From: Bacteroidota bacterium
GTDB lineage: Bacteria; Bacteroidota; Bacteroidia; UKL13-3
Assembly (NCBI GenBank): GCA_947492885.1
Contig: CANLPK010000012.1
Coordinates: forward strand, 1 to 50,241
DNA: 50,241 bases
Direction of reading: 5' to 3'
A program made the position numbers and the translations under genes. Shown here in pieces: positions 30,022 through 50,241 of this stretch (position 1 is the stretch's first letter; every line of letters starts with the position of its first letter). The notes beneath the pieces were generated by a model. The model had not been told where the DNA came from, made no database searches, and was given only the letters and a program-made list of their open reading frames with translations.

Positions 30022-30366
30022 TTACAATCCCCCTTTCCCCGCATCAATCATCTTTTTAATGATCACAATTTGCCCTAAATGATAATGCGAATGCTCGATG
30101 ATACCCTGGATATTTCGATAATATGTTCCGTATTTTTCTTCAACAAATATTTCCCATAAAACCGATTCCGGTAATTTTTCAATGAGGCTGGCCATCTCCT
30201 CCGCATGGTTATAATGCAATGCGAGCATCGCCTTCCATTCGGCTTCATTATTTATCGGAGGACAATCGAAACTAAATTTATCATTATGGCTATTATTATT
30301 CAACTGCTTCGCAGTTGGCAAGTTTAAATTTATTGATTCACCATTTTTTAAAATTGTATTTAATAC
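30022..30366 (-). pseudogene. N-terminally truncated DinB-like protein gene
   Basis: KFSFDCPPINNEAEWKAMLALHYNHAEEMASLIEKLP...EKYGTYYRNIQGIIEHSHYHLGQIVIIKKMI is DinB-like C-terminus; no ATG start, only TTG at 30319-30321; reading frame upstream (VLNTILKNGESINL) still looks homologous then hits TGA inside the heptamer array. Confidence 0.6.
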
Positions 30367-30447
30367 GATTCACGTTTTACGATTCACGTTTTACGACTTA
30401 CGATTCACAACTCACTACTCACTACTCACTACTAACTTCTAACTACT
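30364..30447 (-). repeat. degenerate heptanucleotide array, 12 units
   Basis: - strand units: AGTAGTT AGAAGTT AGTAGTG x3 AGTTGTG AATCGTA AGTCGTA AAACGTG AATCGTA AAACGTG AATCGTA; no phase slips. Confidence 0.85.
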
Positions 30448-30456
30448 CCCCCCGCA

Positions 30457-33400
30457 CTACCTCCAATCCCCATACAATACAAACGCGCCCCAGAAGAAGG
30501 GATGAATGTATTTGGGATTTTTGGAAAGTGTTGCTTGGGCAGCGCGTAAAGCTTCGGCTTTGGGCATTGTTTTGAGGTTTTTGTAGAACTCCGTCATTAA
30601 AATTCCTGTGGCATCATCATCCACACTCCATAAGGAAGCAATCACTGTTTTCACGCCTTTCTCCAAGAAGGAATTTGCCGCCGAATAGTACCAGCCTTTG
30701 ATGGAGTCGGTAGTTACTGCTGTTTCGCATGCAGAGAGCACTACCATATCGCAACTTAATTTCTTCAATCCCTTGATTTCAGAAATGCTGAGGTTCCCAT
30801 CGTCGGAGGCATCGGAAGTGAACTTGATATACGAGTTTTTGAAATTGGAATTGTCGAGAATACCATGTGTAGCGAAATGAATGAAATGTTTTGATTGCAG
30901 TGATTGTTTGGCTTGCAATTCGGTGGCTTCTTTGCCATAGTAGTAATCACCATTCACCAACATCTTTTGTATGTCTTTCACTTCTCTTTCTGCACTGGGC
31001 AATTCTTTTTGGGTATGATTGTAATCGGGATTGCCAAAGGCTGCCATAGAGTTCAAGCTATCATTGCCTCTAGAGTTACGTAAGAAGATATCGAGCTTCG
31101 TAATATAAAAGATGGAGTAATCTTCAACTAAGAAACGGAAGTCGGTTGGATTGGTACCATTTCCTAAAACTTGAAATGGAATATTACAAAGCTTTCCATT
31201 CGGGATGATACAAATTTTTGTTTTGCCTTTGATATCTGCAGCGATAGGGTCAATCAAAATCTTATACAAATCTTTAGAGGTTCCGAGCAAGGTGAGTCCC
31301 GTTTGCACAGGTTCTTCCAATAGCTCGCCCCCTCTGAGTTTCAAGGTATGTGCACCCGCCGATTTATCGGGAACATTTAATAGGCTTTGGAAGTTTTTAA
31401 TTTTAGTTTCTAACTCTTTTTGTTTGATACGAACCACACTCACTTTTTTCGATTGATTTGTCACCGTGAAAATAAATAGGTTGTCATCATTCATCATATA
31501 CAATACCACGGCTACATCTTGAGGTATATTTTCTTGATACGATTCAAAGTCTTTCGGGTTGGTATGGGTTACAAAATTATCTTTCAGGTCGGGGTAGGTA
31601 GTCACCAGGGAATCAATATAATTCACATAGTCGGCTTCCACGGTTAAGATGGAACGTTCATAAGAGCTTATCACTTCCTGATTTTGTTCAGCTACTGGTT
31701 TTGCTTTCTCGTTAGATAAATTTTCCTTTAGTGTTTTGCTCTGTAATTCAAGTTCCTGTGCACGTTTCAAGGCTTCAGCTTTCTTTGGGTCGTCAATAAC
31801 TAAACCACCTCTCGAAATCTGATCTTTCATTCCTTGAATATTGCTCTTGTTGGCAAACTCAAGGGCGGCAGTTGTGTCATGTAGTTCGATAAACGAGGCA
31901 ATAATTTTCGAGTACAAATCTACTTTTCTGCTGTCATTTGAATATTTGCTTCTCACTTTCTCATCATCAAAAACATTGGATGAATTTTCTTCTATGATCT
32001 TGATTGCCTGCTTATAATAGATTACTGAGGAATCGAATTTTTGTCTTTCAAAAAAGAAGGTGCCTAAGTCGTAGAGTGCCTCCCAATTGTATTTCACAAT
32101 ATTATAACGCGCCGATTCGTCCACACATTTTTGAAGATACTCCACACCCTTAGCGGTATTGTTGAGTTTCATGTAGGTGCGACCGAGGTATAAGGCTGCT
32201 TCAATGGTTTTCTCCCGCTCGTTGCTCAAATTTCCATACTGCGATGATTCATTTAAGTAGGTGAGGGCTTGCGTATAATTTTTACGATCATATTCTAAAT
32301 GACCTAATACCAGTGCTGCTTCTGAGGCCATACGATTGAGCTTCTTTTCTTTTGATATCGTATATGATGGCATCAAATATTTTAAGGAATTTGGATAATC
32401 TTTCTTTACTAAAAATATTTCGCCCAAATTAAGTCCGTATAGTATCCATGATTCATTATGAAGTTTTATTTTTTCATGAATGTCATATGCCGTTTTAATA
32501 TAAGGGTAGCATCCATCAAAATCGGCTTGCCAATAGTATAGGGTTCCAATATTATTTTGCGAGACCGAACGACCCAATAGATTATTGTCTTTTACGTAAA
32601 TACTATCTGCCATCGTATAGTAGTAGTTGGCCAATTTATATTCAGAAGTGTGCTGGTAAATTCCACCCTTAGTGAGATAGCAATTGGCAATATAGGCGCT
32701 GTTTTGAAGGTCTTTCACTAAACTAATTGAGCTGTCGGCATAGATTAATGCATTGTGAAAATCGCCTGTTAAATTGTACTGATAACTGATGGAATTGAAT
32801 GCATCTGATTGGTCGAGTATATTGTTATTTTTCCGTGCTACCTCCAACGATTTATTAAAGTACAAATCGGCTTTGATAAAATCGCCGCGAGTTACATAGT
32901 TGCTGCCCACATTAGAATACAATCGCGAGAGCTGGGTTACCTCCCCAATAGAATCGAAAATATGAATCGATTTGAGATAGTACTCCGTTGATTTTTCAAT
33001 ATTGAGTTCGTTGGTAAAGATGCGTGCCATATAGTTATAGCAGACCGCAATTTCACGGATGTTTGCATTTTTATTGGCGATGAATAAGGCATTATCAATT
33101 TTGTTTTTGGAGTCAACGTATTGGAAATTTAACGAAGCCAGATTGGCTAAATTCAAAAGTGAATAAATTTGATTACTCACATCACCCATCTCCTTAGCCA
33201 AATTATTACAGATGGTAAAGTACTTGCGTGAAGCCGCGGTATCGTAACTATAAGCAACTGTTGCCATATTATAAGAGCTCTCAATCTGATTAATTCGGTT
33301 GTTCGATTTTACCGACATATCATAAGCACTATTGTATTTTTCAAAGGCCTTCATTTCATTTTTCTCTTTGGTGTACATTTCCCCATATGAGGTATAGATA

Positions 33401-35271
33401 TCGTACAAGCCACTTGAATCTTTTGCCGTTACATAATAGCTCACTGCACTATCGAGGGCGAGCACCGCCTTATCTTTCTCACCCATTTCTACATAGAGGT
33501 CACTTAGTTTTGTCCAGGTATAAGCGGTACCTGAATAATCATTTTTATATTGGCGTAGGATGATGGCTTCTTTGAAAATGGTTACAGCATCGTCGTATTT
33601 ACCCAAGCGCTGATATGATTTTGCCACCCCTGAACGCGCCAATCCCGCATTGGAATAAGATTCTAAATTATAATAACCACGGTACGATTCATTATAATAA
33701 TCGATTGCATCGTTAAATTTACCGAGATTGAAATATACAGATGCCATACTGTAATAGGTATACGCGATTTTTTCACGATTCCCTAAATCTTTATAGCTTT
33801 TTAAAAGTTTACCATACGCATCGATGGCCTCATTGCTCTTTCCTTGTTTTTTGTAGATGGTAGCCACCATATCGTAGTATGTGATATTTTTCTTGCGGCT
33901 ATCCAATGTGTTCAGGTTATTGTTTATAGCAATGGCTTTCTGGAAATTATCCATGGCAGCATTGAAGTCGAAAAGCTCATAGTAATTAATTGCCAGGTAA
34001 TAGTAAATTTTTGGTTCCAAAAAATTTCTGTTGAAGCTACTTAATTGATCTTTATAAGTATTGTAATCGTCGAGAGTTTTCTTGTCACTTACAATAGCCT
34101 CTTTATATTTTTTGTCGGCATAAAGACAATAAACCTCTTTGAGCTCACAATTTAAGAGTCCACTATAATCTTTAAGTAGCAAGTAAAGTGCAGATGCTTT
34201 TTTGCAATATTTAATGGCTTCGTTATAATTTTCTTTGTCTTGATAAAGTTGAGCCTTCATGAAATAGCAGTATACCAAACCAGCACTGTCTTTGAGTTCA
34301 GTGCCTATTTTTATGGCAATATCCAGGATCGTATTTGCCGAATCGAATTGGTTATTATTGATGAAATTGGGGATTCCGGCGGCCCAATAATATACCATCT
34401 CTTCTTTTAAAATGAGTGCTTTGTTTTCTCTAATCACTCGAATTTGTTCTAACGATTTATTCTTGAAATAATATACCGAATCCATAATCTCGATTTTACT
34501 ATACGGTGCTTTATTCATTACCCAGGTTGCAAAAATGTCAGGGAAATTCCAGTCGTTGCTCGTATAACTTATCGAATAATTATTCACGTATTTCATGAAT
34601 GCCAAAATGTCTTTCGGCTTCGGGTCTTTAATTAAATTCATGGTGCTCTTGCCTTTGTAACGCCCAGTAGGTATGGTGTCACGCAAGTATTGATATTTCT
34701 CCATATCTTTAATTATCTCGTACACATCGTGCATGCTGTTGATGCATTGCGTTATCATGCTATCTTCATTTCCTTTGCTATCGTAATATAGCAAACCCTT
34801 AAAAGTGTAGAGGGGCTTTTTATCAATATAGAAATTTATATTCTTTTTAGCCATCTCAAAAAACATGGAATGATAGGGAAGGGGTGGAATTAATATTTCC
34901 GCGGCCACCACATAGTCATTCACATAAATTTCCGAATTTTTATCGGTTACATCATATCGCACGATGGTTACAAAGGAAGTATAATCACCTACCGCAGTTA
35001 CGATTGCATATCCGTACTCAATATTCTCTCTGCTTTTAATTCCAACATTAATGGAGCCGTATACTTTTAGCGTGGTATTGAGTTTTATTCCTGCTTTCTT
35101 GCCAGCCGGAATCGTAGCATACACGGTATCATCACGAACTTCTAGTATATCATTAATATAAAAATACAAGTCGGAATATTCGGTGCTGACTTTCTTTTGT
35201 GCGTTCGTTTTAATTCCAAAGATGAGAAGCATCACAAGAACACAAATTCTAGGAAATTGGTATTTCTTCAT
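30457..35271 (-). CDS. secreted TPR-repeat protein with C-terminal CHAT protease domain
   Basis: Signal peptide MKKYQFPRICVLVMLLIFGIKTNAQ; numerous TPRs (e.g. AIDAYGKLLKSYKDLGNREKIAYTYYSMASVYFNLGKFNDAIDYYNESY); CHAT motifs HFIHFATHG and MVVLSACET, ASLWSVDDDATGILMTEFY, HPFFWGAFVLYGDWR. Confidence 0.95.
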   Translation of the reverse strand: MKKYQFPRICVLVMLLIFGIKTNAQKKVSTEYSDLYFYINDILEVRDDTVYATIPAGKKAGIKLNTTLKVYGSINVGIKSRENIEYGYAIVTAVGDYTSFVTIVRYDVTDKNSEIYVNDYVVAAEILIPPLPYHSMFFEMAKKNINFYIDKKPLYTFKGLLYYDSKGNEDSMITQCINSMHDVYEIIKDMEKYQYLRDTIPTGRYKGKSTMNLIKDPKPKDILAFMKYVNNYSISYTSNDWNFPDIFATWVMNKAPYSKIEIMDSVYYFKNKSLEQIRVIRENKALILKEEMVYYWAAGIPNFINNNQFDSANTILDIAIKIGTELKDSAGLVYCYFMKAQLYQDKENYNEAIKYCKKASALYLLLKDYSGLLNCELKEVYCLYADKKYKEAIVSDKKTLDDYNTYKDQLSSFNRNFLEPKIYYYLAINYYELFDFNAAMDNFQKAIAINNNLNTLDSRKKNITYYDMVATIYKKQGKSNEAIDAYGKLLKSYKDLGNREKIAYTYYSMASVYFNLGKFNDAIDYYNESYRGYYNLESYSNAGLARSGVAKSYQRLGKYDDAVTIFKEAIILRQYKNDYSGTAYTWTKLSDLYVEMGEKDKAVLALDSAVSYYVTAKDSSGLYDIYTSYGEMYTKEKNEMKAFEKYNSAYDMSVKSNNRINQIESSYNMATVAYSYDTAASRKYFTICNNLAKEMGDVSNQIYSLLNLANLASLNFQYVDSKNKIDNALFIANKNANIREIAVCYNYMARIFTNELNIEKSTEYYLKSIHIFDSIGEVTQLSRLYSNVGSNYVTRGDFIKADLYFNKSLEVARKNNNILDQSDAFNSISYQYNLTGDFHNALIYADSSISLVKDLQNSAYIANCYLTKGGIYQHTSEYKLANYYYTMADSIYVKDNNLLGRSVSQNNIGTLYYWQADFDGCYPYIKTAYDIHEKIKLHNESWILYGLNLGEIFLVKKDYPNSLKYLMPSYTISKEKKLNRMASEAALVLGHLEYDRKNYTQALTYLNESSQYGNLSNEREKTIEAALYLGRTYMKLNNTAKGVEYLQKCVDESARYNIVKYNWEALYDLGTFFFERQKFDSSVIYYKQAIKIIEENSSNVFDDEKVRSKYSNDSRKVDLYSKIIASFIELHDTTAALEFANKSNIQGMKDQISRGGLVIDDPKKAEALKRAQELELQSKTLKENLSNEKAKPVAEQNQEVISSYERSILTVEADYVNYIDSLVTTYPDLKDNFVTHTNPKDFESYQENIPQDVAVVLYMMNDDNLFIFTVTNQSKKVSVVRIKQKELETKIKNFQSLLNVPDKSAGAHTLKLRGGELLEEPVQTGLTLLGTSKDLYKILIDPIAADIKGKTKICIIPNGKLCNIPFQVLGNGTNPTDFRFLVEDYSIFYITKLDIFLRNSRGNDSLNSMAAFGNPDYNHTQKELPSAEREVKDIQKMLVNGDYYYGKEATELQAKQSLQSKHFIHFATHGILDNSNFKNSYIKFTSDASDDGNLSISEIKGLKKLSCDMVVLSACETAVTTDSIKGWYYSAANSFLEKGVKTVIASLWSVDDDATGILMTEFYKNLKTMPKAEALRAAQATLSKNPKYIHPFFWGAFVLYGDWR

Positions 35272-47015: not shown

Positions 47016-47852
47016 TTATTTAGAGGCCGCTTCATGCTGCGGGAAGGTGATATATTTCTTCTTTAAGAAATTAGGCAAGATCTCGCGATGCGTAAGAATG
47101 ATTTTATCAGGGTCGTCAAGCTTATCAATCATCTCTAAGTATTTCACTTCACCAAATTGTTCAATCACTTGCGCCTTCTTCTTTTCATCGGTGAGTAAAT
47201 AGTAACGCATTCCTATACCGTCGGCTTCTGGGTGAAACTGGGTGCCATAAATTTCATCGGAGAATCGGATGGCCATCAAAGCCCTTTCCAGTGGTACATT
47301 CGGGCGTTCCTTTTCCAAGGCAAGCACTTCGGCACGTGTTTCAAAAAACTTGGTCATATTGGGCTGTATCACTTGCCATTCTCTACTATCAACAATATAA
47401 AACGTTTCTGCGAGATTTTTCAAGATGGCATCTTCTTTACCCGCTTCCGTTTTGTGGGTAGGCATCACTCCAAAAGAGGTGCTCTTACGCTGGCATACAA
47501 CTCCGTAACCATAGTTGCGGCAGAACACTTGAAAAGAGTGACAAATTAAAAAGAGGAATTTCTTCTCGTCCGATTTCTTATTGATGGATTCAATCGATTC
47601 AATCAGATGAAAGAACTTATTTTCCCAATCGCTGCCAGCGCTGTCAATGGGGCTTCCTGGGCCACCGCTGCTGATGAATACATCGAAGTTTCGTGCGTCG
47701 GGCACTTCCCCTTTACCTCTAATATCAAATATTTCGTAGGTTATAGGCAAGGCTTCATCACTTGCAAATTTCTCGATGGTTTCCTTGATTCCTCTCATGC
47801 CCTGATTCTCATGCCCGAGGTACATATCCAAAATAGCAATTCTATAATTCAC
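47016..47852 (-). CDS. class I glutamine amidotransferase-like protein
   Basis: DVFISSGGPGSP, FLFLICHSFQVFCR nucleophile region, EIYGTQFHPEADG. Confidence 0.85.
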   Translation of the reverse strand: MNYRIAILDMYLGHENQGMRGIKETIEKFASDEALPITYEIFDIRGKGEVPDARNFDVFISSGGPGSPIDSAGSDWENKFFHLIESIESINKKSDEKKFLFLICHSFQVFCRNYGYGVVCQRKSTSFGVMPTHKTEAGKEDAILKNLAETFYIVDSREWQVIQPNMTKFFETRAEVLALEKERPNVPLERALMAIRFSDEIYGTQFHPEADGIGMRYYLLTDEKKKAQVIEQFGEVKYLEMIDKLDDPDKIILTHREILPNFLKKKYITFPQHEAASK

Positions 47853-47860
47853 GATGCGAA

Positions 47861-47972
47861 GATAGTGAATCGTGGTACGTAAAACGTAATGCGTAATGCG
47901 TAAAACGTAATTCGTAGAACGTAAAACGTAATGCGTAAAACGTAATGCGTAGAACGTAAACAGTGAATCGTA
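47861..47972 (+). repeat. degenerate heptanucleotide array, 16 units
   Basis: + strand units GATAGTG AATCGTG GTACGTA AAACGTA ATGCGTA ATGCGTA AAACGTA ATTCGTA GAACGTA AAACGTA ATGCGTA AAACGTA ATGCGTA GAACGTA AACAGTG AATCGTA; no phase slips. Confidence 0.88.
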
Positions 47973-48074: not shown

Positions 48075-48226
48075 GTCCGTCGTTGCGTCTCCGACCAACG
48101 ACCGCAATGCCCTCCGGCCTTCGATGTGTTCATTGTGGAAGGCAGCTAAGGGAATGAATCATCAGCCCAAAAAGACATTGCTATACGAGAAGCGCTGAGC
48201 CGTTGGTCGGAGACGCAACGGCGGAC
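48075..48226. repeat. MITE-like element with 26-bp terminal inverted repeats
   Basis: gtccgtcgttgcgtctccgaccaacg (48075-48100) and cgttggtcggagacgcaacggcggac (48201-48226): reverse complements at 25/26 positions. Confidence 0.85.
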
Positions 48227-48396: not shown

Positions 48397-50241
48397 CTAC
48401 TCCACGCTCACCCTTGCCATCGTCACCTTCCCATTACATTCAACACTCACGAAATAAATTCCTGAAGCGGGTTGGTTCAATTCAATATTAACGATTGAAT
48501 CGGCAGTGCTTTGGTTGCTTGTTACTTCATAAACCTGCATTCCCAAAGCATTGTACACAGTGATATGAATATCTCTTTGAATATCATTTCCAAGATTCAC
48601 ATTAAACTTACCTTGACTTGGATTGGGATAAACTGTAGGCTGCTTGCCATTCGATAAATCATCAAGACCAGTATTGGCACAAGTATTAATGGATAGATTG
48701 GTAGTGTTTTGAAATAGTGGAAGTCCGGAAGCAGCATTACGTAAGCGGATACGGTAATTATTGCCATAGGTTGTTCCTTGTGGAATCGCAGTTGCAATGG
48801 GGCTATTTACACTATAACCAATGGTAAGTGGAGCATCAAAGCTTCCTGAAACATCGGATAGCTCAGCGATGAAAGGCCCTGTTACATCACCTACGGTATG
48901 AAAAGGAATACTCACATTGTATGATGTGCTTGAACAAAACGGACTACCATTAATTTGATCGGTAATGATTGCATAGCATGTATTTATTTCTAAATCGCTT
49001 CCATTATCTGAGCCAATCATGTAAGGCGAATTACTCATCACGCGAATGCGGTACCCTGTGCCTTTCGTTGTTGCAGTTAGGATGGTGGCAGTAATTGGAC
49101 TACTGGTAGCTGAACCTATAATAGTTGGGGTAGTAAACGAGCCATTTTCATCAGATAACTGCGCATAAAAATTACCAGTATAATTTCCAATGAAACTAAA
49201 TGGAACATACACAGTATATGAGGTATTCTGGCAGAATGGTGAGCCTTGAATAGTACCTGTGGTGATTGAATTTTGGATGCACGTATTGATGGATAGATTC
49301 ACACCGTTATCGGCCCCAACGATAGCTGGGCTACTATTTTTAACGCGTATTCTATACTTGGTTCCTATAGGTGTATTCGATGGAATGTTCACGCTGATTG
49401 GGCTGGTGGTGCTAATTCCAATGGATACAGGTGCTGCAAAACTTCCTAATGAATCGGAGAGCTCGGCGGTATAATAGCCATTGAAACTTCCTAGAGATAC
49501 AAAGGGTACCGAAGTGGCAAAGCTAGTATTGCTGCAAAACGGACTGCCTGCAATACTTCCAGTTGCGATAGTATTGTTATTGCAATTATGAATGGTTACA
49601 TCACTCGATGATGGGGTGCATGGTGGATTGCTGATTGTCCAACGAAAAACAATATCTCCATTTCCCAAACTAGTTACACTAGTGTTTGGATTCGTTGGCG
49701 AGGAGATGCTACCAGTACCACTTACTAACGACCATAAGCCAGTGCCAGTAGTAGGTGAGTTGCCTGATAAGGTAGTTGTTGTAGCGCAAATTGTTTGTGG
49801 TGCACCAGCATTTGCGGTAGTGATCGTTCCTGAGAAACTAATCATTACTGTATCGCTCGATACTCCACAACTGCCGCTTGAAATTTTCCAGATAAATTGA
49901 TTGGCACCGATGCCTAATCCAGTAACGGAGCTTGTTGGTGATGATGGATTGTTGATGGTTCCAGTACCAATTAATAATGTCCAGCTACCAGTTCCCGATG
50001 CTGGGGTATTACCATTTAATGTTGTTGTATTCGTGCACAACACTTGATCAGTTCCAGCATTGGCAGTAGTTGGCGATGATAAAACAGATATTACAACAGT
50101 ATCAATCGACGGTGAGCAAGGTGGATTGGAGATTGTCCAAAGTAAAATATTTTGTCCCCAACCCAAACCAGAAATAGTGGTAATTGGGCTCAATGCATTA
50201 GTGAATGTGCAGCTGCCGCTTACTTTCGACCACATTCCAGT
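48397..50241 (-). CDS. secreted repeat protein with T9SS C-terminal sorting domain (N-terminal part outside window)
   Basis: C-terminal TVYPNPSQGKFNVNLGNDIQRDIHITVYNALGMQVYEV...GIYFVSVECNGKVTMARVSVE; repeated TANAGxxQxLCxxTTTLxGNxPxxGTGxWxLxxGTGxIxxPxxPxxxVTxLGxG units; frame open to the window end. Confidence 0.93.
   Translation of the reverse strand, partial: TGMWSKVSGSCTFTNALSPITTISGLGWGQNILLWTISNPPCSPSIDTVVISVLSSPTTANAGTDQVLCTNTTTLNGNTPASGTGSWTLLIGTGTINNPSSPTSSVTGLGIGANQFIWKISSGSCGVSSDTVMISFSGTITTANAGAPQTICATTTTLSGNSPTTGTGLWSLVSGTGSISSPTNPNTSVTSLGNGDIVFRWTISNPPCTPSSSDVTIHNCNNNTIATGSIAGSPFCSNTSFATSVPFVSLGSFNGYYTAELSDSLGSFAAPVSIGISTTSPISVNIPSNTPIGTKYRIRVKNSSPAIVGADNGVNLSINTCIQNSITTGTIQGSPFCQNTSYTVYVPFSFIGNYTGNFYAQLSDENGSFTTPTIIGSATSSPITATILTATTKGTGYRIRVMSNSPYMIGSDNGSDLEINTCYAIITDQINGSPFCSSTSYNVSIPFHTVGDVTGPFIAELSDVSGSFDAPLTIGYSVNSPIATAIPQGTTYGNNYRIRLRNAASGLPLFQNTTNLSINTCANTGLDDLSNGKQPTVYPNPSQGKFNVNLGNDIQRDIHITVYNALGMQVYEVTSNQSTADSIVNIELNQPASGIYFVSVECNGKVTMARVSVE

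Follow-up and report, generated by a model that had tools for sequence, protein, structure and literature searches.

Heptamers are the commonest long-unit repeats in many bacteria, according to Mrazek et al. (2007) as cited in later work (PMC4679880, PMC4692102), and the same citations credit these authors with the proposal that a 7-nt polymerase contact favors slippage. Two intergenic systems have been described more fully. Rehm et al. (2015; PMC4692102) reported GGGAATC and GGGGA(C/T)T heptamers in Xanthomonas and Nostoc, placed about 50 bp or less from a start codon (on the non-coding strand) or a stop codon (on the coding strand). Some overlap the stop codon, inverted pairs occur occasionally, and both length and sequence vary strongly among close relatives. 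MacGregor (2015; PMC4679880) reported TAACTGA direct repeats in Beggiatoaceae, Cyanobacteria, and a few Bacteroidetes, with sets just before start codons having the AC-containing strand as sense and a single set, following a stop codon, in the reverse orientation; binding by S1, Csp, or CsrA-type proteins was proposed for the sets before starts. The tandem heptanucleotides of Calothrix PCC 7601, as cited in PMC4692102, are cyanobacterial STRR sequences.

We analyzed a stretch of 50,241 nucleotides from a Bacteroidota genome (the window), in which a tract close to one end is best read as a variant of these known intergenic heptanucleotide arrays, a kind of long simple sequence repeat. The tract and its surroundings comprise the following features.

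47861 to 47972, + strand: main array, 16 CGTA-type heptamers (112 bp), with the GT strand being the + strand
47016 to 47852, - strand: class-I glutamine amidotransferase-like gene (Pfam PF00117), whose GTG start at 47852 abuts the main array
47856 to 47864, - strand: candidate -7 promoter element TATCTTCGC, between array and start and overlapping the first unit
48075 to 48226, no strand assigned: dispersed inverted repeat (REP-like hairpins, 26-bp arms), sharing the intergenic region of the main array
48397 to 50235, - strand: gene across the intergenic region from the array, with a Por secretion-system C-terminal sorting domain

The original prediction, made from the letters of the window, described 16 in-register heptamers without an indel, and this is exact for 47861 to 47972. 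Its account of the units also held: positions 5-6 are GT in all 16, 13 out of 16 end in CGTA, and variation is restricted to certain unit positions, as expected of a phase-locked degenerate family. The units are chiefly AAACGTA and ATGCGTA, and because these alternate, Tandem Repeats Finder reported periods of 14 and 21 as well as 7 (score up to 110). Stop codons are asymmetric between strands: the GT (+) strand has 15 across its three frames, and the - strand has none. An Rfam scan of the window gave no match at the gathering score, so a known RNA family is not supported.

As predicted, the array lies upstream of the amidotransferase start, with its first unit 9 bp from the GTG at 47852 (- strand), and the AC strand is the sense strand just before the start codon. 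The Bacteroidota -7 promoter consensus is TAnnTTTG, and the candidate element TATCTTCGC is conserved in a sister species. Any effect of the array on the amidotransferase promoter or 5' region is most likely secondary at most.

Tandem Repeats Finder also located a second array in the window, which had been overlooked.

30364 to 30447, - strand: second array, 12 heptamers with the unit grammar ARNNGTD
30355 to 30360, + strand: TGTATT cap, at the end of the second array that faces the intergenic region; ahead of the array, the AC strand has TTGTATTTAATAC

This array starts 9 bp past the stop codon of a gene (30457 to 35232) for a large protein with a CHAT domain and many tetratricopeptide repeats; relative to that gene, the GT strand of the array is the sense strand. 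Both arrays are well beyond chance when compared with 200 first-order Markov resamples of the window: the lag-7 scores of the two were 32 and 35 out of 42, the resamples reaching at most 26, and no GT/AC lattice in the resamples was longer than 5 units, compared with the 16 and 12 observed.

Arrays of this type recur across the genome. A search for four ARNNGTD units found them on seven contigs, including that of the window, while the reversed pattern returned none in the same genome, and an eighth contig bears an array in an unselected stretch (locus L164). With at least eight contigs involved, the expectation of further arrays was borne out, and the lack of such arrays, which had been named as grounds for refutation, fails. 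Four-unit ARNNGTD arrays are absent from three out of four other genomes of the genus. A pattern-free scan of 257 kb from this genome and its sister, part of which was picked for containing a hit, gave 28 arrays at lag 7 and 0-3 at each of lags 5, 6, 8, 9, 10, and 11. Other array types met there (GTATTTA, GTATTGA, and GTCTTAT) are likewise GT-anchored, and 680 kb of unselected sequence contained two regions, each with two facing arrays, all GT-anchored. The GT/AC lattice of the genus arrays is well above chance under column permutation (mid-rank 0.221 ± 0.031 versus 0.5), a test that drew on partly hit-selected sequence. The genus arrays are intergenic, with a few overlapping gene ends. Their flavor is a GT-D-A core (GTRANNN, with GTATTNA relatives).

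Comparison with the described systems shows that the kind of element and its orientation are shared, while the unit, the degeneracy, and the TGTATT cap differ. With the GGGAATC-type repeats, the present arrays have in common degenerate intergenic heptamers, an orientation rule, turnover, and occasional inverted pairs. Those repeats, however, are G-rich and quadruplex-forming, whereas the units here (CGTAAAA, CGTAATG) are not G-rich, carry the GT-D-A core, and contain no GGG run in the main array; the cap found on related arrays sets them further apart. The TAACTGA repeats resemble the main array in lying before starts, with the AC strand as sense and stops on one strand. They differ in having a near-invariant unit and mostly short sets, whereas the present arrays are degenerate and of other sequence, and TAACTGA is not among the units of the main array. 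Surveys like that of Mrazek et al. probably score near-perfect repeats and would mostly miss this degenerate lattice. The likeness to the Calothrix STRR lies in the tandem heptanucleotides of cyanobacteria, several of which carry CGTAATT arrays.

The cyanobacterial comparison bears on the proposal that the window holds an analogous but different family, which was not supported. Seven-unit CGTA arrays gave at least 118 matches among named genomes, and the matches listed included Chloroflexota, Cyanobacteria, Gammaproteobacteria, Desulfobacterota, Bacteroidota, Cloacimonadota, and others. Nostoc, Trichormus, Planktothrix, Dolichospermum, and Sphaerospermopsis have CGTA-type arrays, including the unit CGTAATT. 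A Chloroflexota locus (L291) reads CGTAGAA CGTAATG CGTAAAA ... CGTAATT, the same unit mixture as in the window, and some Chloroflexota arrays with this mixture start at the stop codon of a gene. Since CGTA arrays, some with the mixture of the window, occur in many phyla, those of the window are not a separate Bacteroidota family. The shared degenerate mixture (CGTAAAA, CGTAATG, CGTAGAA, CGTAATT) suggests a common cause rather than common ancestry. Phage origin was rejected, as 5-unit CGTA arrays were present in only 26 of 2.9 million viral contigs. We also note that an 8-kb stretch of a Chloroflexaceae metagenome-assembled genome (L247) contains at least 17 different heptamer arrays, several as inverted neighbors.

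Within the class, the anchor is variable. A 7-bp lattice of seven or more GT occurred in 119 out of 194 genomes and one of seven GG in 91 out of 194, and a reversed (TG) control gave results similar to the GT search. The similarity of the control indicates that heptamer arrays of many sequences exist class-wide and that GT is the flavor of the genus. A GT anchor as a class-wide rule was thus rejected, GG or TG anchors being about equally common in other class members. A repeat-rich relative had three arrays in 232 kb of random stretches, too few for statistics.

Orientation within the genus is strict. Among GTRANNN/GTATTNA arrays up to 150 bp from a gene edge, the GT strand points outward from the nearest gene edge at 20 out of 20 distinct loci (two-sided p = 1.9e-6), the one-strand-outward polarity of the repeats of Rehm et al.; one locus was assigned by hand, and another (L155) is almost equidistant from two genes. 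The outward GT strand is sense at stop-codon edges and antisense at start edges. GTCTTAT-type arrays have the opposite orientation (three out of three). The location proposed for these arrays, at gene starts, stood in part: they do lie at gene edges, but in the genus equal numbers directly follow stop codons. Across phyla, polarity is weak: GT points outward in 34 of the 50 arrays at CGTA loci within 60 bp of a gene edge. Some bias at the stop side would arise in any case, since a reading frame entering an array ends at its first stop. Class-wide outward polarity was not found in a Bacteroidia sample, which gave 8 versus 8 at start edges and 18 versus 10 at stop edges.

The cap is similarly one-sided. 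TGTATT occurs on the AC strand at the intergenic end of 13 out of 22 arrays, against 0.7 expected, and at the gene-side end of only one out of 22 (binomial p ~2e-14, remaining below 1e-9 once 4096 hexamers are allowed for). The main array is uncapped, and the distance between the cap and the first lattice AC is variable. As a separate observation, a dispersed core of ~110 bp, ACATAAGACGTGAATCGTGGCGAG ... CCCTTCGAAGTAAAACTACTG[CT]TGTATT, lies between genes with heptamer arrays on both sides (L147, 14500-14620 and 15920-16030; L158, 1253-1453).

Arrays at orthologous sites differ between the two sister species, compared with one genome per species, in both length and units. At the main site, where the amidotransferase proteins are 97% identical, the sister species has a short array (GATAGTG AATGCTT GG GATAGTG AATGGTG AATGGTG AGTGGGT) with the same gene-side edge. 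At the second site, the edges are again the same but enclose ~12 units of a different sequence, next to a 17.4-kb flank that is 89.6% identical. Over the orthologous sites, flanks are 82-90% identical and arrays are mostly unalignable, while boundaries and the GT lattice are kept; at one further locus, the two species have identical arrays. This pattern indicates that units turn over fast and that the lattice is mostly retained. The spacer between genes that we take to be rpsG and fusA, from the known gene order S7, EF-G, offers a deeper comparison. Other genera of the family have an array-free spacer of 10-30 bp. In the genus it measures ~140 bp, and AC every seven bases is kept there in two diverged species with other positions differing; a third diverged species showed no clear lattice in this spacer. 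One stretch departs from the usual divergence: positions 1373-2400 of L148 (contig C57 of the genome under study) are 99.8%-100% identical to the sister over 1 kb, both arrays included, compared with 82%-97% in other regions. Recent exchange or a misplaced contig are possible explanations.

We consider it probable that the tract is a heptamer array of the known kind that grew by 7-bp slippage and was filtered by its neighboring genes, and the array itself most likely serves as quickly evolving spacer DNA at the edges of genes. Growth, shrinkage, and unit exchange in 7-bp steps would result from slipped-strand synthesis or unequal recombination, as suggested by the 14- and 21-bp periods and the turnover of units. 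Neighboring genes may then act as a filter on array survival. Beyond the end of a gene, an array would be tolerated if the strand read onward from the gene bears stop codons, and with a period of 7 every frame meets a stop within 21 bases. Ahead of a start, it would be tolerated if the AC strand, which is G-poor and stop-free, is the one that runs into the gene. Gene-edge filtering is supported, short of proof, by the polarity and by the stop test, in which stops per unit exceeded column-permuted versions (mid-rank 0.354 ± 0.033 versus 0.5 in 44 sampled class arrays). A stop in every unit was rejected as a defining rule; it describes 15 out of 16 main-array units and most genus arrays but only a trend in the class. 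Outside the genus, the stop-codon filter is likewise a trend, with clear exceptions (GGAAGAC, GGACAAT, and GGGGTTT arrays), and by itself it does not account for polarity at gene starts. The opposite orientation of the GTCTTAT-type arrays counts against this reading. Slippage alone also leaves unexplained the retention of GT while other positions vary, as well as the cap.

The kept GT pair and the cap leave room for readings based on binding sites or templated growth. A DNA- or RNA-binding protein, for example of cold-shock, S1, or RRM type, could recognize GT/AC every seven bases near gene boundaries and regulate transcription ends or translation starts. Such a binding lattice would explain why GT is kept at orthologous sites while the other five positions diverge, it suits the strict outward polarity within the genus, and it has a precedent in the binding proposed by MacGregor for TAACTGA (PMC4679880). 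Even so, we regard it as unlikely, given that most genes have no array (two array-bearing regions in the 680 kb of unselected sequence), that three of the four other genomes of the genus lack the four-unit arrays, and that GT polarity is weak across phyla. Rho utilization of the AC strand was rejected, as many main-array units have no YC.

A bolder reading, and one we think quite unlikely, is that the GT(N5) lattice with its TGTATT cap, always pointing off genes, is an actively maintained gene-boundary element served by a dedicated GT/AC factor or a cap-extending enzyme, with the grammar reached independently by different phyla.

Alternatively, a small mobile or dispersed element could be delimited by TGTATT at its ends, in which case the arrays would be its edges and the heptamers would lie outside the caps. 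The strong excess of TGTATT at intergenic edges and its near absence at the other edge would fit, as would the facing inverted arrays in several intergenic regions and the ~110-bp core found three times between arrays. But cores between caps are mostly unrelated and range from ~50 to 800 bp, the cap stands at no constant distance from the first AC, and the rpsG-fusA site bears the lattice in each of the three diverged species where the site could be recognized, so that recent movement is not seen. We judge this origin improbable.

It is very improbable that the arrays are arms of long, terminator-like RNA or DNA hairpins, each paired with an inverted partner. The rpsG-fusA spacer does fold better than 200 out of 200 shuffles (z = -3.45), and 18 of 30 neighboring pairs at the many-phylum CGTA loci match better inverted; however, three further genus regions with facing arrays fold non-significantly (z = -0.95 to -1.76), 11 of 15 neighbor pairs in Bacteroidia match better as direct repeats, and the spacer of the main array contains no comparable partner for it. 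Neither the fold tests nor the neighbor-pair comparison found a hairpin partner for every array. Finally, although the assembly is a draft (183 contigs, 89.5% complete), the main array is almost certainly no sequencing or assembly artifact, since the separate assembly of the sister species bears arrays with other units at the same sites and short-read collapse would not create arrays of such diverse units.

This genus offers orthologous sites at which units turn over while a two-base lattice and its polarity are kept, together with a cap motif undescribed for the related heptamer repeats compared here (PMC4692102, PMC4679880). With such sites and the cap, slippage, translation-based selection, and protein binding become separable by strain comparison or deletions.

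The inverted repeat at 48075 to 48226 is separate from the heptamer array. It consists of CCGTTGGTCGGAGACGCAACGG and a TCGTTG...CAACGA partner, and it also occurs at another locus (L082, 2452-2980). Allowing up to two mismatches, none of the other three genus members has a copy, while the genome of the window has 13 copies and the sister genome 17, where it is also found as tandem copies of 113 bp.
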